A stretch of DNA of 64,000 bases from Accumulibacter sp. (GTDB taxonomy: Bacteria; Pseudomonadota; Gammaproteobacteria; Burkholderiales; Rhodocyclaceae). Position numbers and translations under genes: made by a program. Positions 4,058 through 22,900 of this stretch are shown piece by piece. The stretch lies in NCBI GenBank assembly GCA_020049495.1, contig JAIFKU010000088.1:1-64000 (forward strand), read 5' to 3'. Numbering within the stretch: the stretch's first letter is position 1; each line of letters begins with the position of its first letter. A model generated the notes under the pieces. The model saw only the letters and a list, made by a program, of their open reading frames with translations. It was not told where the DNA came from and did no database searches.

Positions 4058-5032
4058 TTACTTGGTGTTGACAACCTTCTGAACAATGGCCTTCAGATCC
4101 GGGGCCGGAGAATATTTGTCCCAGACCGGCTTCATCGCAGCAACAAATTCTGCCTTGTTGACATCGGTTATGAATGTCGCGCCAGCTTTCTTGGCAATTT
4201 CCTTGGAAGCAGCCTCCTTTGCGATCCACAGCTTCGTAAAATACGGAACGGAATCTTTTGCTGCTTTGCGGATAATTGCCTGCTCTTCCTTCGTGAGGGT
4301 GTCCCATACTTTCTTGGAAAAGACGACAACGTCCGGAGCCATTACATGCTGGGTTTCGCTATAGACCGGTGCTGCTTCATAATGTTTCGAGGTTTCATAT
4401 GAGGGATAGTTGTTCTCGGCTGCATCAACCAGCCCCGTCTTCAACGCGGTATAAACTTCGGCGTACGGAATCGGAGTCGCAGTCATGCCCATTGCACTGG
4501 CAATACCCACCCATAAATCTGAAGGCTGCACGCGAATTTTCATTCCTTTCGCATCGGCCAGGGTGCGAACCGGTTTCTTTGCATAGACTGAACGTGCGCC
4601 GGCTTCATACATGCACAATCCGATGAAGCCATGTTTTTCGAAGGCGGCAAGTATTTCGTCGCCTACGGATCCGTACATCGCGTTGCGGAAATGATTGATG
4701 TCCCGGAAGATAAACGGGAACGACGGAATCAGGGTTTCCGGGATGATGCCATGAAATTCAGAAGTTGAAACACGGGTCATATCCAGCGCGCCAATCTTGA
4801 CTTGCTCGATTGCATCTTTTCCGGAACCCAATACGCTATTGCCAAAAACCTTGACGTTGTATTTTCCTTTGGTTGCTGCAGATACCTGATCTCCGATGAA
4901 TTTCTGGGCCAGTACAGTCGGATAATCCATCGGCTGGTTATCCGCAGCACGGAAATCACGCGCTATTGTTGCCGAGCCAAACACGGACAAGAACACTGTA
5001 ACAATGATTCCAGATACTTTTCTAATTCGCAT
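4058..5032 (-). CDS. TRAP transporter substrate-binding protein, DctP family
   Basis: The 324-residue protein has a clear signal peptide (MRIRKVSGIIVTVFLSVFGSATIA). The start at 5032 has a strong GGAGG; a longer frame to 5140 lacks one. DctP/SiaP-type features include the GMKIRVQPSDLW segment with the Arg that binds the ligand carboxylate, PIPYAEVYTALKTGLVDAAENNYPSY, and a long C-terminal helix. It would bind an organic acid or sugar acid in the periplasm. No DctQ or DctM membrane subunit lies within the window, so it is an orphan binding protein here. Its neighbours suggest a sugar-acid ligand. Confidence 0.9.
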   Translation of the reverse strand: MRIRKVSGIIVTVFLSVFGSATIARDFRAADNQPMDYPTVLAQKFIGDQVSAATKGKYNVKVFGNSVLGSGKDAIEQVKIGALDMTRVSTSEFHGIIPETLIPSFPFIFRDINHFRNAMYGSVGDEILAAFEKHGFIGLCMYEAGARSVYAKKPVRTLADAKGMKIRVQPSDLWVGIASAMGMTATPIPYAEVYTALKTGLVDAAENNYPSYETSKHYEAAPVYSETQHVMAPDVVVFSKKVWDTLTKEEQAIIRKAAKDSVPYFTKLWIAKEAASKEIAKKAGATFITDVNKAEFVAAMKPVWDKYSPAPDLKAIVQKVVNTK

Positions 5033-5278
5033 AGTGCCTCCAGAAAAAATTAAGAAATGGGATATAACAACCTTCAGGATTTGTATCAGAGATAAACAAC
5101 AGTCTTCATCTTGATAACCGGCGAATTCTTGCATTCGCAAAATGGCGCAAGATATTTATTCCCCACGTTCCTCACGGAGGGGTTTGCCATGGTGAACGTC
5201 GAACCGTTTGATTTCCTAAGCAAACGTATTCTTGATTTTTATTCCGTAACAAATCAAATACCATTTATGCTGCAACGC

Positions 5279-5295
5279 CATACCTGCAAGGTATG
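5279..5295. promoter_or_regulatory. Palindrome in the leader of the TRAP binding-protein gene
   Basis: CATACC-TGCAA-GGTATG is a perfect 6-bp inverted repeat about 250 bases upstream of the dctP-like start. It could be a repressor operator or a small hairpin behind the epimerase gene. It is the only distinct element in 5033-5352; no gene is supported there. Confidence 0.25.
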
Positions 5296-5352
5296 AAAGT
5301 AGTGCGCCCTGAACACCTTCTTCGGGGATTTGAACCGGAATCACCCGCGTGA

Positions 5353-6072
5353 TCAGGACTGTGCAATCGTTGAATCCCCGATTTGAGTTTTCAACACGTC
5401 GCTCAGAGTTTTTTCAAAGCGTCGGCAAGCGGCCGTGATTCCATCTTCTTGCTGAAATACGGTATAGATTCCTGTGACATAAACCTCGGCGCCTCTTCGG
5501 GCGCACTCGATGGCATTGGGGTAATCTACTCCGCCATCGATCGAAATGAGGAAATTGACGTCATGTTTCTTGCGCAGCCGGTCAAGTTCGGTGACGCGCG
5601 GCAGACTGTCAACCATGAACTTCTGGCCAGCATAGCCCGGCTCCACCGTCATCAAAACGACATAGTCGAGAAACCTGATAAAGGGCTCGATCACCGATAT
5701 GGACTGGCTGGGATTGATGACCACGCCGGCTTTCATTCCCAGTTCCCGAATGCTCACCAGGGTCCGGCGTGTAAAGTTGGTTGAGTCCACATGGAAACTA
5801 ACCCAGTCGGCTTTGTTTTGCTTCAGTAAAGGCAGGTAACTCATGGGGTCGGTGACCATGAGATGCACATCGATATCGATCGCGGGATATTTTTGCTTCA
5901 GTTCTCCCACTATCCTTACCGGGAAGCAGAGATTGGGGACATAGTGGCCATCCATGATATCGACGTGAAACCAGTGTGCGCCGCCTTGTACCAGTTCTTC
6001 GACTTGTTGCCCCATATCCATAAAACTGCAATTCGCCAGGGACGGTGCATTGATAATCCGGGTTGCGTTCAT
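5353..6072 (-). CDS. Ribulose-phosphate 3-epimerase family protein (Rpe/AlsE-like)
   Basis: The protein has 239 residues and a TIM-barrel epimerase layout. HVDIMDGHYVPN supplies a metal His and Asp plus the catalytic Asp. DVHLMV supplies another metal His, MTVEPGYAGQKF is the phosphate loop, and SIDGGVD supplies the second catalytic Asp. The MTVEPGYAG form and overall divergence recall AlsE (D-allulose-6-phosphate 3-epimerase) as much as Rpe. Its place beside an IolB-like isomerase and a TRAP binding protein argues for a catabolic sugar-phosphate substrate rather than the Calvin or pentose pathway. It follows the IolB-like gene by 6 bases, so the two probably share an operon. Confidence 0.85.
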   Translation of the reverse strand: MNATRIINAPSLANCSFMDMGQQVEELVQGGAHWFHVDIMDGHYVPNLCFPVRIVGELKQKYPAIDIDVHLMVTDPMSYLPLLKQNKADWVSFHVDSTNFTRRTLVSIRELGMKAGVVINPSQSISVIEPFIRFLDYVVLMTVEPGYAGQKFMVDSLPRVTELDRLRKKHDVNFLISIDGGVDYPNAIECARRGAEVYVTGIYTVFQQEDGITAACRRFEKTLSDVLKTQIGDSTIAQS

Positions 6073-6078
6073 AGGTCC

Positions 6079-6834
6079 TTACTCCAACTTGTCGCCGTAG
6101 ATCGCCTGCGTGTGCAAGTCCATGAATTTTCGATCTTCGGCGGTGGTGCTAACCATGCAATAAACGTAGCGAATGCCAGTTTTCGGGCAACCCACGTTGG
6201 GATGATAACCTGAAGGAATGGCAATCAAATGGCCATTCTGAACCAAGGCAATGGCGTCCGGATTTTGCATGTCTTCGTAAACGCACTGCAGAGCAAAGCC
6301 GTCGTCCATATTGAAATAGATATACACCTCTTCCCGCTTCACTCCATGCTCATGTGGCGGCCAGGCCGTCCAGCCACCGGGGGCACCGTAGCAAATCCCC
6401 ATGAGCAGGCGGCTTGAATCAAAACTTTCGTCAATAAAATTCCATACATCGCGACGCGTTCCCGATTCGACCTTTCCATACACTTTGTGGCGCTCGTCGG
6501 CATCGACATCCTTGAAGGCGATGTGAGCAAATGAGGTTTGACGTTTGCACGGCGCGCCGTAGCGGATCACAATCGCCGGGCCGTTGGTGAGGTCTATGGC
6601 GCTTTCAATGGGCAGATAGAGCATGTCTCCAAGGCCTGCGACCCCTGATCTGTCCTTGAAGCGGTAAGACACTTCGCCCTCGATAACCACGAGACAAAGC
6701 TCATTGCCCCCGCTCTTGACGGAGACAGTCGCCCCATTGATTTCCAGACGCTGCAAACTGGTGTACACAAGCCCAAGATCGCCTGGTTCGAGGAGCTTTA
6801 GCGTTTCACCCGGCTTGAAATGGTATTTCGACAT
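6079..6834 (-). CDS. IolB/KduI-like isomerase (5-deoxy-glucuronate isomerase family)
   Basis: The double-cupin protein has 251 residues from ATG 6834. GGAGG lies 11 bases upstream of it, and only 2 bases before an alternative in-frame GTG at 6843. The C-terminal half has the family signature: WPPHEHGVKREEVYIYF supplies metal-binding His, His and Glu, and IPSGYHPNVGCP supplies the last His. IolB converts 5-deoxy-D-glucuronate to 5-dehydro-2-deoxy-D-gluconate in inositol catabolism, but no other iol gene is nearby, so a related sugar acid may be the substrate. Confidence 0.8.
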   Translation of the reverse strand: MSKYHFKPGETLKLLEPGDLGLVYTSLQRLEINGATVSVKSGGNELCLVVIEGEVSYRFKDRSGVAGLGDMLYLPIESAIDLTNGPAIVIRYGAPCKRQTSFAHIAFKDVDADERHKVYGKVESGTRRDVWNFIDESFDSSRLLMGICYGAPGGWTAWPPHEHGVKREEVYIYFNMDDGFALQCVYEDMQNPDAIALVQNGHLIAIPSGYHPNVGCPKTGIRYVYCMVSTTAEDRKFMDLHTQAIYGDKLE

Positions 6835-6944
6835 TGACTGCACCGCCTCCTTTTGTACTCGGTTTTGATCTGTTCCGGCTCAATTCGCCAGCCAAGGCTC
6901 TTGAGTCTCTTCCTTGTTTCAGATTGTCGCCTGTGCCTGTCCAT

Positions 6945-7298
6945 TCACCTGGGAAAATGATAAAGAAATACATGCAAGTCTTCGCTGCCGACTTTTTTGA
7001 TGGCGTGCGGCATTCCCGCCGGGGCATACATCGCGCAACCGGGTTCCAGGTCGAATTCCTTGCCGTTTACAAGCATCTTGCCGTGGCCAGAAATGACATA
7101 AAACCCTTCGTTGTCATCGTGCACACCGGGTTGTGGATAGTCTTCACTGAAAAAGATGTTAAACATCGCGCAGCAAGCTTGTACCGGCGTATTTTCCTCA
7201 TTGAAGATGGGATAGCTGTACGCCCCCGGAAAGGTGAGGCGATTGTCTGCATCGGAGTGAGCAACATACGTCAGCGGCACTTCTTTCTCCCTGTTCAT
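6945..7298 (-). CDS. Small single-domain cupin protein
   Basis: The 117-residue protein is one cupin barrel. Its first motif is GVHDDNEGFYVISGHGKMLVNG and its second is PAGMPHAI, with a preserved His in each. The ATG at 7298 overlaps the stop of a short upstream open frame as TGATG; no strong Shine-Dalgarno is seen. Cupins of this size serve as small sugar isomerases, mutarotases or metal-binding accessory proteins. Being next to the IolB-like and SDR genes suggests a role in the same sugar-acid route. No specific function is assigned. Confidence 0.75.
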   Translation of the reverse strand: MNREKEVPLTYVAHSDADNRLTFPGAYSYPIFNEENTPVQACCAMFNIFFSEDYPQPGVHDDNEGFYVISGHGKMLVNGKEFDLEPGCAMYAPAGMPHAIKKVGSEDLHVFLYHFPR

Positions 7299-7821
7299 CA
7301 ATGACTTGCAAATAGAAGGCGAGCTTTCGAATAAACCTGGCCAAGTGCGAAAGCGCCGGGACCCCTGTCTATGGTCGTTCCCTGAAAGATGGCCATGAAA
7401 TGGTTATTGTGGATTTTGTTCTTGCCCTCATCAAATACCATTTGCACCGTTTGTCCATACCCTATAGGTATCGGACTCCCCGATGATTGGGATCCATCGG
7501 CTTGTATCAGCCCTCGATAACGGTGTCGTTGATGGCGGCTCGCCACGGTTTTCGCCAGCGGCCCCCGCTTACAGCAACGACATCAAGACGCATTCAATAC
7601 TCTTGTGCTGCCATCGACCGCTGGACCGGAAACGCCGTGAAGCGATACTGAAGCCATCTTGCAGTCATCAGGGGAAAGCGCGAATCCACCACCTTCTGCC
7701 CATTCCTTGGCGGCCAATAGCTGTTGATTGCTTTCGTTTCGGCTGCAAAGGCAGGATTTATCCACTGGAGAACCATGGCAAGGTGAAGTGGACAAAGCAT
7801 CTGTATTGATGCGAATTGGAA
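7299..7821 (-). other. Gene-poor stretch, possibly decayed coding sequence
   Basis: No gene is recognised in these 520 bases between the SDR and the cupin. On the minus strand an open frame (7546 to 7298) ends with TGATG at the cupin start and contains protein-like text such as PIPIGYGQTVQMVFDEG. A second short frame lies at 7594-7800. Neither has a ribosome site or a family I recognise. They may be remnants of a lost gene. Confidence 0.3.
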
Positions 7822-8601
7822 TTAAAGGACGCCTGGATAGGCCCCTCCATCCATAAGAAAATTCTGGCCAGTCACGTAACCCGCCTGCACGCTGCACAGG
7901 AAGGCACAGGCAGCCCCGAATTCCTCGATTCGCCCGAACCGGCCACAGGGAATGCCTTGCAACTGGCGCGCCGTCACTTCTTCGACGCTGAGATTGGAGG
8001 CTTCCGCCTGGGCGCGGGTTACTACAGCCAGACGATCGGTGGCAAACAACCCAGGCAGGATATTGTTGATCGTCACTCCGTGTGGCGCCACCTGGCGAGC
8101 CAAGCCGGCAACAAACCCGGTCAGGCCGGCGCGAGCACCGTTGGACAAACCCAGAACCCCAATCGGAGCCTTGACTGCGGCACTGGTGATATTGATGACG
8201 CGTCCGAAGCCGCGGCTCATCATCCCATCGACGGTCGCGCGAATGAGTGCGATGGGCGTCAGCATGTTGGCGCCCAGAGCCCGCTGCCAGTCCTCGTCGG
8301 TGAAATTTCGAAAATCCCCTGCCGGAGGGCCACCCGCATTGTTGATCAGGATGTCCGGCTGCGGGCAAGCTGACAAAGCCGCAACACGTCCTTCCTCCGT
8401 TGTAATGTCGCAAACGACGGTCGTGACCTTGACCGCAAACCGTTGGCGAATCTGCTCGGCCGCTTCCTCCAGTTCGACGGCACGGCGCGCAAGAATCACC
8501 AGTTCCACCCCTTCTGCGGCAAGCGCTTCGGCACAACCGCGTCCCAACCCCTTGCTGGCAGCACAGACAAGAGCCTTCTTTCCATTCAGACCTAAATTCA
8601 C
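7822..8601 (-). CDS. Divergent short-chain dehydrogenase/reductase lacking the YxxxK pair
   Basis: The SDR fold protein has 259 residues. It starts with GTG behind AAAGGA. The cofactor loop is CAASKGLGRG, followed by NNAGG and the ITS serine. At the position 13 residues after that Ser, where Tyr is expected, the sequence reads SNGAR, so Tyr is replaced by Ser and the catalytic Lys by Arg. The C-terminus has the normal FLMDGGAYPG. A recognised SDR subgroup shares the SNxxR form, so this is not simple decay. The reaction is unknown and may not follow the classical proton relay. It is first in the minus-strand sugar-acid cluster. Confidence 0.85.
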   Translation of the reverse strand: MNLGLNGKKALVCAASKGLGRGCAEALAAEGVELVILARRAVELEEAAEQIRQRFAVKVTTVVCDITTEEGRVAALSACPQPDILINNAGGPPAGDFRNFTDEDWQRALGANMLTPIALIRATVDGMMSRGFGRVINITSAAVKAPIGVLGLSNGARAGLTGFVAGLARQVAPHGVTINNILPGLFATDRLAVVTRAQAEASNLSVEEVTARQLQGIPCGRFGRIEEFGAACAFLCSVQAGYVTGQNFLMDGGAYPGVL

Positions 8602-8781: not shown

Positions 8782-9165
8782 TTACCGGGCCCGGGCGCCC
8801 TTGACGAACTCAAGCGAAGCCCGAAACAATTCGAGATCTTGCTCGTAGTCCGCAGCGTCGGCCCGATCGATCTGAATCCATTCCCTCGTACTGGCCATCC
8901 CGCCGGGTTGAAATGGAACGACGTCGTTTCTCGAGAATTGCAACTCGGACGCAGTAGAGGCAGGCAAGCGCAGTCCAACGCCGTTTCCGCTTATACAGGC
9001 GAACATCTTGTCGCTGACGAAAAAGGCGTCAAGGTCGCTGATTTTTCTTGCGCTGACGCCTGGAAGTTTAAGGAGAAGAGCATCGATTTGCGCCTTGCGG
9101 CTTGACTTTTGGATAAGGGTATTCAAGTGGGCTCCATGGAGTGTGTCATGCCAAAGGCGATTCAA
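8782..9165 (-). CDS. TfoX/Sxy N-terminal-domain-like small protein
   Basis: The frame is 127 residues. The core MFACISGNGVGLRLP, then VPFQPGG, EWIQIDRADAADYEQDLELFRASLEFV, follows the TfoX N-terminal / MmcQ-YjbR-like pattern, though the usual RKMFG segment is altered to RKISD. The only start in this register is TTG at 9165 with no ribosome site; the frame stays open further upstream, so the N-terminus is uncertain. It follows the fusion gene by about 45 bases on the same strand. Function unknown. Confidence 0.55.
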   Translation of the reverse strand: MNRLWHDTLHGAHLNTLIQKSSRKAQIDALLLKLPGVSARKISDLDAFFVSDKMFACISGNGVGLRLPASTASELQFSRNDVVPFQPGGMASTREWIQIDRADAADYEQDLELFRASLEFVKGARAR

Positions 9166-9208: not shown

Positions 9209-11974
9209 TCAAGTTGGCGGCAGCAGCGTCAACGACGCCGACTGACGCGGGTCCTTATTCAAGAACCGCTCAACCCAGAACTGGCCGGAACGCGAACTGG
9301 TGACTGCGCCAAACAATCGCGCATCATTTTCAAGGCCCGCCGCAAACCCGCCGGCGTAGCCGGCTTGCATCGCCTCCAGAGCGACCCGACCCGCGTAGGC
9401 GCGCGCGGCTTTCAGGTCGCCAGCCGTGCCTTCATCAGGGGCGGGTGCGGCGAGCAGCCACGCGGTCTTTTTCGAGGACAGCAGTTCCGAAAGCTCGCCC
9501 ATTTGAGCGGCCGACAGACGATCCCAATCACGGCACGGAAGATCGATTTCACCCTCCGCAATCCGAAGCGCGGTTATGAACGCCAAACGCAAGGCGCTTG
9601 CCGCCGGACAGAACGCATCCGCCAGCCCGACAGAAACAGCGCGATGGCCATCGATCGGCTCTCCGTTCAGGGCGAGTTCAGCCGCCTTCCGGGGTCCGAT
9701 CAGTCTGGGCAGGCGCTGCATGCCGCCGTAACCTGGCATGATGCCCAGCTTGATTTCAGGCTGCCCCAACAGCGCATTCTCGGTAACAATCCGATAGTGA
9801 GCGCTCATCGCAAATTCGTTTCCGCCACCCAGGGCGACGCCATCGACCAGCGCAACGACAGGGACGCGTAAGCGCTCCATACGGCCAAAGACTTCGATGA
9901 CTTTCGCCGCGAGCCCGCCAACAACGTGTGCACTTGCCCCGAGGAATCCGGCGATGTCGGCGCCGGCCATGAACGCGCGGCCATACCCTCGAAGTACGAT
10001 GGCGCGGACCGGATTCCCTTTTATTGTTCCAGCAATTTCGACCTCGGCAACGATCTCCTCGAGTTGCGCTAGCAAGCTTTCACTCAGCGCATTCAGAGCA
10101 TCGGGCCGAGTGATCGTGACGATCGCCACGTCCTCGCACAGGCCCACCGACAGATTGCGCCCCTGACCCGGATCGGCGACCAGAAGAGACTTTCCGAGAT
10201 AATCCACTTCGTACTCGGCAATCGCGCGACCGGCGCAGTCAGCCTGAATCAAGGCGACGCCTTTGGGCTTGCTCATCTTGCCGTCCAGCATCTTTTGCTG
10301 GATTTCAGGCAGACCGGCTAGGCTTGTTATCTCCAGGTCGCTCTGGTCCATCACAATGCGCTTGTCCGCGAGCAGTCGGAGCACCTCCTGGGCTTGCCCG
10401 GCGCGGTACATGTGCGACCCGCATATGGAAAGGTTGAAGTCGCCTTTCACAATGATCCAGCTGGACGGCATTTCGTCCCGTTCGTTGTAGTCGCGGGCGA
10501 GGAAGGCAGACAGATGAAGGGTGCTCTGATCCGGCCGGTCAACGACGAAGTCGGGGCTGATGCCCGGACCGAACACCTGACGCACCGCAACGGCCAGTTC
10601 TCGCGCCGACTGCATGAAGTCCGGCCAATACTCCGGGTTCGGTGCGCCGGCGTCGGTAAGGGGATCCGGCATATCGTCGAGCAAGGAAAATTGATCCCGG
10701 TCGATAAGGTGTGTTTCCGCAATGCCCAGTTTCAGTAGATTCTGGATGCCTTTGGCGTCCTGTTTCCTGGAGGCAATGACGACGATCTCGGCACCACGCT
10801 GTAATGCCGCCCGGACAAATTCGGCCGCGTACGCGTCGGCACCCCAGACCAGTCCTCTGCGTCCGGGCAATAGCGACATTTCGTCAAAGATCGTCTCGGG
10901 CGAACCGTTGCGGAAAGCGATCTGCTTTTGCCGCATCCACACCCAGCGTGCATCGAAAACGTAGCGATTCTTTCCGTAGAAGAACGTCTCCTTGTATTCC
11001 CCTTTGAGGCCACTCCCCGTTGCTCCGAAGAACGCCAGATGTCCGCCATCGGCAAGCGCGGAAACCAGGAGCGGAAAATTCCGGCCGCCCGTATGCTCAA
11101 AAACCTTATCGATAAGTCGTCCTTTGTTGGCCACACAGACCGCTTGCCGAAAAGGCTCCGTAAGCTGACGCCAGGCGCTGAAGTCCTCGTCCGGCGACAA
11201 GACTCTGAACATCTCTGCAGGCAAGGTGCGACGATCAATAAAGGCGTCGGCGATGCCACGCTCGATCAGCGACTTTGCAAGTTCCGGACTGGATCCGAAA
11301 AGGATGACGCGCGCACCGAGAAGCTTGGCGATCTGTGCGCCGGGAAAGCTTGTACCTCTACCGCCACCCATCAGGAGAATGGAATCGCCGGGGCGAACCG
11401 CCAGCAATTGCACGACCGCGCGATACGCCGTGCCATAAGTCAGAAGCATCGCGGCAAGCTGCTCGGGGGAATGCTGCTTAAGTGCCTCTGGAATCAGAAT
11501 CGCATGTTGCTGGTCGATGGCCACGAACTGACCGTTGAAGCCATCATGCGTCTCGTAACCACGGATGTTCTGCTGCAACGTCCATGCATCGAGGATAACG
11601 GCTTGACCAAGACGAGGCGATTTCACCGCCGGTCCGGCATCAACCACGATGCCTAATGCATCGCTCCCCGGAATGTGGATCGTCGCCGGGTCCACCCGCC
11701 CGAACACCGGAACGGGCAAGCCGAGGGCAGCAAAATTCGTGTTGAAATTGGGTCCCGAGGCGAGAACGCTGACCAGCACCTTGTTGGCATCTTCGGGCCG
11801 CAATCTGGGCGTTGGAACCGATTCCATGCCAATCACTTCCGCGGGTGCGCCATAGCGGTCGCGATGTATGGTCAAGGCCTCCATGCGATCGGGAATTGCC
11901 ATCGCAATTGTGGGCGACTGACCGAGCAACCACTGGTCAGTCGAACGAGTTTCCATGATGTTTTCCTCTCCCAT
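9209..11974 (-). CDS. Fusion: crotonyl-CoA-reductase-like MDR (two nucleotide-binding regions) plus enoyl-CoA hydratase
   Basis: The protein has 921 residues; ATG 11974 has AGGAG 6 bases upstream. Residues about 30-390 resemble crotonyl-CoA carboxylase/reductase: GPNFNTNFAALG, IPGSDALGIV, the RGYETHDG loop, TAYRAVV, and WVWMRQKQI. No zinc-binding Cys is seen. Residues about 390-625 hold a second Rossmann-like segment (GLVWGADAYAAEF) and a GSHMYRAGQAQEVLRLL tail like the end of Ccr. Residues about 635-880 are a crotonase with GRAFMAGAD, GGGNEFAM and GQPEIKLGIMPGYGG. Both catalytic Glu residues (NEF, PEI) are present, so hydratase activity is expected. A joint hydratase/reductase acting on a 3-hydroxyacyl-CoA or enoyl-CoA is my inference; propionyl-CoA synthase combines the same activities in another order. 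Confidence 0.8.
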   Translation of the reverse strand: MGEENIMETRSTDQWLLGQSPTIAMAIPDRMEALTIHRDRYGAPAEVIGMESVPTPRLRPEDANKVLVSVLASGPNFNTNFAALGLPVPVFGRVDPATIHIPGSDALGIVVDAGPAVKSPRLGQAVILDAWTLQQNIRGYETHDGFNGQFVAIDQQHAILIPEALKQHSPEQLAAMLLTYGTAYRAVVQLLAVRPGDSILLMGGGRGTSFPGAQIAKLLGARVILFGSSPELAKSLIERGIADAFIDRRTLPAEMFRVLSPDEDFSAWRQLTEPFRQAVCVANKGRLIDKVFEHTGGRNFPLLVSALADGGHLAFFGATGSGLKGEYKETFFYGKNRYVFDARWVWMRQKQIAFRNGSPETIFDEMSLLPGRRGLVWGADAYAAEFVRAALQRGAEIVVIASRKQDAKGIQNLLKLGIAETHLIDRDQFSLLDDMPDPLTDAGAPNPEYWPDFMQSARELAVAVRQVFGPGISPDFVVDRPDQSTLHLSAFLARDYNERDEMPSSWIIVKGDFNLSICGSHMYRAGQAQEVLRLLADKRIVMDQSDLEITSLAGLPEIQQKMLDGKMSKPKGVALIQADCAGRAIAEYEVDYLGKSLLVADPGQGRNLSVGLCEDVAIVTITRPDALNALSESLLAQLEEIVAEVEIAGTIKGNPVRAIVLRGYGRAFMAGADIAGFLGASAHVVGGLAAKVIEVFGRMERLRVPVVALVDGVALGGGNEFAMSAHYRIVTENALLGQPEIKLGIMPGYGGMQRLPRLIGPRKAAELALNGEPIDGHRAVSVGLADAFCPAASALRLAFITALRIAEGEIDLPCRDWDRLSAAQMGELSELLSSKKTAWLLAAPAPDEGTAGDLKAARAYAGRVALEAMQAGYAGGFAAGLENDARLFGAVTSSRSGQFWVERFLNKDPRQSASLTLLPPT

Positions 11975-19775: not shown

Positions 19776-19917
19776 CTCGACCGGCCTCATTGTCCGGCTC
19801 GCGCCGATTTGAAGTTCAGCTTGCGGGCGCGTAACAAATGCGGCTAAAGCGGGCGCGATTCGAAGCTTTTTCCGAAACCCGTTCGTCTGAACGGGTTTTT
19901 CATTTCTGAGGTTTCAA
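19776..19917 (+). promoter_or_regulatory. metH leader ending in an intrinsic terminator, candidate attenuator or riboswitch
   Basis: The terminator is AAACCCGTTC-GTCT-GAACGGGTTT followed by TT (19875-19900). It ends 17 bases before the metH ATG, with the GAGG ribosome site in between, so there is no room for a second promoter and metH transcripts must read through it. Upstream, CGCGCC (19800-19805) can pair with either of two GGCGCG copies (19826-19831 or 19852-19857), which allows alternative folds. I do not recognise a SAH, SAM or cobalamin aptamer consensus. Confidence 0.55.
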
Positions 19918-22900
19918 ATGCAGCCTGACCGTAGCGCCGAACTCTCCACCCTGTTGCAACAGCGCATCCTCATCCTCGACGGGGCGATGGGGACGATGAT
20001 CCAGCGGCACAAGCTGCTGGAAGCCGACTATCGCGGTACGCGCTTTGCCGACCACGCGCATGACCTGAAGGGCAACAATGATCTGCTGCTGCTGACGCGG
20101 CCCGATATCATCCGCGGGATTCACAGCGAGTATCTGGCGGCTGGTGCCGACATCCTTGAAACCAATACCTTCAATGCCACTGCTGTTTCGCAGGCCGATT
20201 ACAAGCTTGAAAACATCGTCTATGAGCTGAACTTCGCCGGAGCAAAGATTGCCCGTGAGGCATGCGACGAATTCACCGCCAGGGACCCGGCCCAGCCACG
20301 CTTTGTCGCCGGCGTGCTCGGCCCGACCTCGCGTACGGCGTCGATTTCACCCGACGTGAACGATCCAGGCTACCGAAATACAAGCTTTGACGAGTTAGTG
20401 GGCACTTACACCGAAGCTATTCGCGGACTGACCGACGGCGGTGCCGACATGTTGCTGGTCGAGACCATCTTCGACACGCTCAACGCCAAGGCCGCGTTAT
20501 TCTCGATCGAGCAGTTCTTCGAAAAGACTGGCCGACGCTGGCCGGTGATGATTTCGGGTACGATCACCGACGCCTCCGGGCGCACCCTCTCCGGACAGAC
20601 GGCCGAGGCCTTCTGGAACTCGCTCAGCCACATCCGGCCATTGTCCTTCGGCCTCAACTGCGCGCTCGGCGCGGCCGAACTGCGCCAGTACGTCGAAGAG
20701 CTCTCGCGCATTAGCGATTGCTTTGTTTCTGCACATCCGAATGCCGGCCTGCCCAATCCGCTATCGCCTACGGGTTACGATGAAACGCCCGAGCAACTGG
20801 CGAAAGAAATCGTCGACTGGGCCCGGAACGGTTTTGTGAATATCGTCGGCGGTTGCTGCGGTACTACGCCAGCGCATATTGCGGCGATTGCCCGTGGGGT
20901 TGCCGGCATCGTGCCGCGCGCCATCCCCGATGTCGAAAAGAAGCTGCGCCTGTCCGGCCTGGAACCCTTCAATGTCGGCAAGGAATCGCTTTTTGTGAAC
21001 GTCGGCGAGCGCACCAACGTCACCGGATCGAAGGCCTTTGCGCGCATGATTCTTGAAGGCCGGTTTGACGACGCGTTGGCGGTTGCCCGCCAGCAGGTCG
21101 AGAACGGTGCGCAACTGATCGACATCAACATGGACGAGGCGATGCTCGACTCGCAAGCGGCGATGGAGCGCTTTCTCAAGTTGATCGCCTCCGAGCCGGA
21201 CATCTCACGCGTGCCGATCATGATCGACTCGTCGAAGTGGGAAATCATCGAGACCGGCCTCAAGTGCATCCAGGGCAAGGGCATCGTCAACTCGATCTCG
21301 ATGAAGGAAGGCGAAGCCAGGTTTGTCGAGCAGGCGAAACTCGCGCGCCGTTACGGTGCTGCGGTCATTGTCATGGCTTTCGACGAAGACGGGCAGGCCG
21401 ACACCTATGCACGCAAGACCGAAATCTGCAAGCGCGCCTACGAATTGCTGATGAGCATCGGCTTTCCTCCCGAAGATATTATTTTCGATCCGAATATCTT
21501 CGCCATCGCCACCGGCATCGAAGAGCACAACAACTACGCCGTCGACTTCATCGAGGCCTGCCGCTGGATTCGCGCCAATTTGCCGTTCGCGCAGATTTCC
21601 GGCGGCGTCTCCAACGTGTCCTTCAGCTTCCGCGGCAACGATGCGGTGCGCGAGGCGATCCACACCGTTTTTCTCTATCACGCGGTCAGGGCCGGACTGT
21701 CGATGGGCATCGTCAACGCCGGCATGGTCGGCATCTACGACGACCTCGAACCGGCGCTGCGCGACAAGGTCGAGGATGTGGTGCTCAACCGCCATCCGGA
21801 AGCCGGCGAAGCCCTGGTCGAGTTCGCGCAGACGGTCAAGGAAGGCAAGGCGAAAGACACCGGCCCCGATCTTTCCTGGCGCGACTTGTCGGTCGAAGCG
21901 CGGCTCTCGCACGCGCTGGTCAAGGGCATTACCGACTTCGTCGTCACCGATACCGAGGAATGCCGCGCCGCGCTGGAGGCGGCCGGCCAGCCGCCGCTGG
22001 CAGTCATCGAAGGCCCGCTGATGAGCGGCATGAACGTCGTCGGCGACCTCTTCGGCGCCGGCAAGATGTTCCTGCCGCAGGTGGTCAAGTCGGCACGCGT
22101 GATGAAGCAGGCGGTGGCGCACCTGATCCCCTATGTCGAAGCCGAGAAGCTGCGCACCGGCGCCACCAGCAAGGGCAGGATCATCATGGCCACGGTCAAG
22201 GGCGACGTGCACGACATCGGCAAGAATATCGTCGGCGTCGTGCTCGGCTGCAACGGCTACGACGTGATCGACCTCGGCGTCATGGTGTCTTGCGACAAAA
22301 TTTTGCACGCAGCCAGAGAGCACGGCGCGCAGGCCATCGGGCTGTCCGGTCTGATCACGCCGTCGCTTGAGGAAATGAGCCATGTGGCCAGCGAAATGCA
22401 GCGCCTCGGTTTTGCCGGCGGTCACAGTGGCGAGGCCATTCCGTTGCTGATCGGCGGCGCGACGACCAGCCGTACCCATACCGCCATCAAGATCGCGCCA
22501 CATTTTTCCGGCCCGGTGGTCTACGTGCCGGATGCCTCGCGTGCCGTCGGTGTGGTCACCAAGCTGCTGTCTATTGACAACGCCGCCGGGTTTAAGGACG
22601 AAATAGCCGCCGACTACACCCGAGTACGCGAACAGCATGCGCACAAGAAAGGCGTGCCTCTCGTATCGCTGGCTGACGCGCGCCGCAACCGTTTTGTCTG
22701 GAATGCCGATCCCGCTTACCGCCCGCTGGCGCCGAACAAACCCGGCCTGCACGTGCTGCGCAATGTCGATCTGGCGACGCTGGCCGAGTACATCGACTGG
22801 GGACCATTCTTCCAGACCTGGGATCTGGCCGGCAGTTTCCCGAAGATTCTCGACGACGCTGTGGTCGGCGAATCGGCACGCTCGGTGTTTGCCGACGGCC

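Follow-up and report, generated by a model that had tools for sequence, protein, structure and literature searches.

A single gene of the 64,000-nt window (the whole stretch of Accumulibacter sp. DNA analysed here, to which all coordinates refer unless another contig is named) encodes a fusion in which a Ccr-type reductase, lacking zinc and containing two Rossmann units (A and B), is followed, from N to C terminus, by a crotonase. This protein probably works as a bifunctional 3-hydroxyacyl-CoA dehydratase and NADPH-dependent enoyl-CoA reductase, much like the back two-thirds of propionyl-CoA synthase (Pcs), with which its reductase shares a common ancestry. As read from the sequence, the C-terminal crotonase would remove water from a short 3-hydroxyacyl-CoA, for which 3-hydroxypropionyl-CoA is the most plausible candidate, to give the enoyl-CoA, and the N-terminal Ccr/Pcs-type reductase would reduce the latter to acyl-CoA (propionyl-CoA) with NADPH bound in unit A. 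Unit B would be a duplicated Rossmann domain whose cofactor site has been lost and which acts as a scaffold, as its Pcs counterpart appears to do; the CoA-ligase step would be left to a separate enzyme, and the reactive intermediate may be kept on the protein. A conversion of 3-hydroxyacyl-CoA to acyl-CoA had been proposed in a preliminary description of this region, and it gains support as a probable activity from catalytic residues that are present and, where compared, invariant.

The reading frame is a confirmed gene (Table 1), with an ATG start and an AGGAG motif 7 nt upstream. Orthologues of matching architecture occur in a Pseudomonadales MAG from the ETNP (L007, 62% identical to the window protein) and in a MAG labelled Acidimicrobiaceae (L008, 61%), and a fourth member was found in genome G497, so the fusion is not a product of chance. 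Third codon positions are the most variable ones in every module, which argues for purifying selection on the entire chain. The suggested survey of this architecture showed it to be rare, with 4 carrier genomes in about 1,570 scans of genomes from sets that overlap: the source genome is the sole carrier among 100 relatives (including 28 other congeners), 369 genomes of its class and 399 of its phylum, and in further sets, again overlapping, two carriers each turned up among the 197 and the 296 genomes around G467/G497, and one among the 198 around G468. A pattern scan of limited sensitivity across 84,980 species genomes returned two matches. No fusion was found in viral contigs, and in the phages searched the only matches were to FadB-like or MDR proteins, each on its own. 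The gene's patchy distribution across two labelled phyla, read from genomes that are MAGs, suggests horizontal transfer.

Table 1. Features of the reductase-crotonase fusion, with window coordinates.
Feature	Residues	Position	Strand	Basis
Whole ORF, reductase (double Rossmann)-crotonase fusion	921 aa	9209..11974	minus	open frame with RBS; orthologues L007, L008, G497
N-terminal GroES-like catalytic lobe, Ccr/Pcs-type reductase	1-190	11405..11974	minus	Pfam ADH_N; PDB 4gi2 (Ccr) 11-353; no zinc ligands
Rossmann unit A, glycine loop GGGRGT 203-208, Ccr-like end FDARWVWMRQKQI	191-353	10916..11404	minus	Pfam ADH_zinc_N; hhalign; residue map
Inter-unit linker FRNGSPETIFDEMSLLPG	354-371	10862..10915	minus	matches Pcs linker TPSEMFDRVDL (hhalign against Pcs reductase)
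Rossmann unit B, Ccr-derived, glycine loop lost (WGAD)	372-516	10427..10861	minus	tblastn; hhalign; model and Foldseek; A/B tree
C-terminal part of catalytic lobe, GSH521	517-590	10205..10426	minus	alignment with Ccr and Pcs
Reductase-crotonase linker	591-611	10142..10204	minus	between two matched regions, without family match
Crotonase / enoyl-CoA hydratase core	612-808	9551..10141	minus	Pfam ECH_1 8e-38; PRK07658 6e-51
C-terminal helical extension of crotonase	809-910	9245..9550	minus	6eqo alignment to 908; FadB NCBIfam match 604-907; Natrinema Pcs to 909
Asn78, equivalent of Ccr N81	78	11741..11743	minus	invariant across fusion, Pcs and Ccr
Glu141, equivalent of Ccr E171	141	11552..11554	minus	invariant across fusion family
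His521, equivalent of Ccr H365	521	10412..10414	minus	invariant across fusion family
Glu720 (GGGNE), first catalytic Glu of hydratase	720	9815..9817	minus	invariant
Glu740 (GQPE), second catalytic Glu of hydratase	740	9755..9757	minus	invariant

The front part of the reductase (residues 1-353) aligns with Ccr 4gi2 at about 32% identity, and its Pfam matches are ADH_N at residues 64-162 (22.5 bits, slightly under the 23.5 cut-off) and ADH_zinc_N at residues 213-340. Residues 1-604 contain only three Cys (280, 518 and 580), so the zinc-ligand set of MDR enzymes is absent, which bears out the initial recognition of a Ccr-like MDR reductase without zinc ligands. Unit A matches Ccr with an E-value of 2e-19 (hhalign), and its glycine loop is invariant in the orthologues compared. 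Since this loop is present in unit A and lost from unit B, a single cofactor site is expected, and unit A is likely to hold the NADPH. Disappearance of the nucleotide-binding residues from both Rossmann units had been named as an observation that would overturn the initial reading; unit A retains them, and the reading withstands this check.

The origin of unit B is revealed by the segment of residues ~355-590, which on its own matches Ruegeria Ccr (E 3e-9, tblastn) and aligns with Ccr columns 223-435 (hhalign 97.8%, E 1e-12), that is, with the Rossmann and C-terminal half of Ccr. Structure prediction, one of the checks proposed earlier, was informative for unit B alone, where the model adopts a Rossmann topology (pLDDT 80-93 around residues 371-431) and retrieves Pcs (6eqo) first and Ccr next in Foldseek; the whole-chain AlphaFold model (pLDDT 40) was unusable. 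A direct profile comparison of units A and B detected no similarity (E 0.16), and their homology is demonstrated only via Ccr. The second Rossmann unit of the preliminary description thus stands as a fold, supported by tblastn, hhalign and Foldseek, and falls as a second nucleotide loop, because GGGRGT is kept in unit A only and unit B has WGAD in its place; unit B probably has a structural role. As a novelty the duplication falls too, since Pcs has it as well.

Indeed, the best PDB match of the complete fusion is Pcs of Erythrobacter sp. NAP1 (6eqo), in which both domains are matched in the opposite order. When compared with haloarchaeal Pcs (references in L015, L017 and L031), the crotonase (616-909) is 32% identical to residues 866-1162 of the Natrinema protein, and the reductase (41-574) is 26% identical to residues 1221-1777, nearly the full reductase length. 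Profile-profile alignment with the Pcs reductase runs through 504 collinear columns (E 1e-31), the inter-unit linker included. In a maximum-likelihood tree of single units, unit B of the fusion groups with unit B of Pcs (96/96) and unit A with unit A (87/91); an independent duplication within the fusion, which would place its own two units together, was rejected (p-AU 0.021). Together the tree and this rejection indicate that the duplication most likely predates the split between the two families, and that the doubled Rossmann unit is most likely a trait inherited in common with Pcs and not a new one. For this reason we regard the fusion as a rearranged relative of Pcs rather than an unrelated joining of a hydratase to a reductase.

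The likeness covers a crotonase with a C-terminal extension and a catalytic Glu pair, as well as a reductase derived from Ccr that has a second Rossmann unit, a matching linker and a glycine loop in unit A only. The differences agree with what had been noted from the outset: Pcs is built in the order ligase-hydratase-reductase, whereas in the fusion the reductase precedes the hydratase; and the AMP-forming ligase of Pcs has no equivalent, as Pfam found no ligase domain in the 921-aa chain and the ligase part of Pcs, used as a phmmer query, had no match in the 64-kb window. In addition, the Ccr strand FDAR-WMRQK closes unit A in the fusion but unit B in Pcs. Given the missing ligase and the different domain order, the fusion is not assigned to Pcs, although a relative of it. 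What is new with respect to Pcs is the reversed order and the absence of the ligase; the double-Rossmann reductase and the hydratase parts were already known.

The crotonase half itself scores well above the family threshold (Pfam ECH_1 at residues 615-807, 130.6 bits against a cut-off of 27), and the two catalytic Glu noted at the outset are both present and invariant. Its deeper ancestry is less sharply defined. The crotonase tree unites the fusion with Pcs and FadB-type proteins (91/91), but within this group the pairing of fusion and Pcs is weak (69/28) and the FadB alternatives are not rejected (p-AU 0.44), so the crotonase could have a separate origin. FadB/FadJ-type hydratase domains likewise carry a C-terminal helical extension within a multidomain chain, although their partner is a 3-hydroxyacyl-CoA dehydrogenase and not an enoyl reductase. 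Pcs-type reductases, moreover, also stand alone: a Haladaptatus protein (L016:4890-6788, 632 aa) is a double-Rossmann reductase that shares 52% identity with the reductase of Natrinema Pcs and 26% with the window fusion over 503 columns; it differs from the latter in being unfused, with separate crotonase genes nearby. It is therefore a serious possibility, although one to which we give somewhat less than even weight, that a Pcs-type reductase and a FadB-type crotonase were joined independently and that no Pcs was permuted. Against this, each half finds a Pcs partner as its match, and the crotonase extension is common to both proteins; the proposed function is compatible with either history. 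The Haladaptatus gene lies on a plasmid, with separate genes for crotonase, CoA-ligase and a BCCT transporter close by, an arrangement resembling a split Pcs.

In another reading only one half would be active, either as a hydratase carrying an inactive scaffold reductase or the converse. The lost cofactor loop of unit B could be cited in its favor, but no variation is seen in the unit A loop, in the pocket residues or in either Glu, and every segment is under purifying selection, which makes such a loss very unlikely. For the bifunctional enzyme, channelled dehydration-reduction is plausible by homology with Pcs, whose sites are described as lying within a closed, positive cavity that keeps acrylyl-CoA inside (PMC10176485).

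A further question is whether the reductase might carboxylate. The CO2 pocket of Ccr comprises N81, F170, E171 and H365 (PMC10966969), and the fusion has N78, Y140, E141 and H521 at these four positions; Tyr at the position of KsCcr F170 is also found in Methylobacterium and Ruegeria Ccr. A hydratase-carboxylase that turns 3-hydroxyacyl-CoA, CO2 and NADPH into an alkylmalonyl-CoA (methyl- or ethylmalonyl-CoA) in the manner of Ccr would agree with the invariance of N78, E141 and H521, with the Ccr-like FEH motif at residues 292-294 (VSH in Pcs), and with the top PDB match of the reductase half searched alone, which is a Ccr. Such an activity nevertheless appears improbable, as Pcs keeps the same pocket and its carboxylation is merely a latent, promiscuous side activity (PMC10176493), and as the fusion scores 162.2 bits against the Ccr family model (NCBIfam crot-CoA-red, TIGR01751), far under its cut-off of 378.55. 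The Ccr structures compared (4gi2 and 6owe) share with the fusion the N-terminal lobe and unit A, the FEH motif and the N/E/H pocket residues, but have one Rossmann unit and no crotonase. Carboxylation by the fusion is thus possible but not favored, and the bolder proposal of a permuted, ligase-free Pcs relative acting as a natural hydratase-carboxylase, in which the reactive enoyl-CoA would stay between the fused sites on its way to alkylmalonyl-CoA, seems more improbable still.

Returning to dehydration followed by plain reduction, the genomic context offers partial guidance on the substrate. Methylmalonyl-CoA mutase is encoded in all four fusion genomes, and propionyl-CoA could therefore be used through methylmalonyl-CoA. 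All four also encode a separate AcuI-type acrylyl-CoA reductase above cut-off, which would make the fusion redundant for acrylyl-CoA, even as a mere means of acrylyl-CoA detoxification; a simple replacement of AcuI was rejected on these grounds, and the G497 fusion locus itself reaches 24 bits against the AcuI model TIGR02823 (cut-off 297). No ligase, 3-HP gene or conserved neighbor in support of a 3-HP route was found around the fusion loci. With gene neighbors that differ in all four genomes, operon evidence for the substrate was discarded; together with the lack of a ligase in the window, these differences suggest that the substrate CoA ester is probably made elsewhere.

Immediately downstream of the fusion, a 127-aa ORF (8782-9165, minus) shows weak YjbR/TfoX_N similarity under Pfam cut-offs. 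It is followed by a same-strand cluster (4058-8601, minus) of an SDR, a cupin, a KduI/IolB-like isomerase, a ribulose-phosphate/allulose epimerase-like protein and a TRAP DctP protein, which looks like a system for taking up and breaking down sugar acids and has no obvious connection with acyl-CoA. The fusion might alternatively act on a 3-hydroxyacyl-CoA that is longer or branched (crotonyl-type, as in reverse beta-oxidation), and the FabG-like SDR (7822-8601) may then serve as the ketoreductase. Consistent with such substrates, the SDR scores as 3-oxoacyl reductase-like on the strand of the fusion, and the crotonase half scores highest with general enoyl-CoA hydratases; however, the YjbR/TfoX_N-like ORF separates the two genes, and the ORF lists of L007, L008 and L021 show no SDR adjacent to the orthologues. 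We consider this alternative unlikely, if still worth keeping in view beside 3-hydroxypropionyl-CoA.

Pcs is known to hold its reactive intermediate, acrylyl-CoA, within a single polypeptide, and a reversed, ligase-less relative directly poses the question whether the enclosed compartment needs the domain order and the ligase. The double-Rossmann form of the reductase, which also exists alone in Haladaptatus, would be older than the split of the fusion and Pcs families. A literature search, with most subscription journals outside its coverage, found no description of the reductase-hydratase architecture. In practical terms, the fusion would supply pathways that depend on converting 3-hydroxyacyl-CoA to acyl-CoA with a compact, naturally occurring part.

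Two minor observations concern other genes. Next to the ETNP MAG orthologue (L007:10721-13325), a flavoprotein and a membrane Fe-S protein resemble TcuA/TcuB by eye. Within the window, an Rfam SAM_alpha (SAM-II) riboswitch, of a family named after the Alphaproteobacteria, lies at 19791-19868 on the plus strand (40.3 bits), just 5' of a metH-like ORF at 19918.
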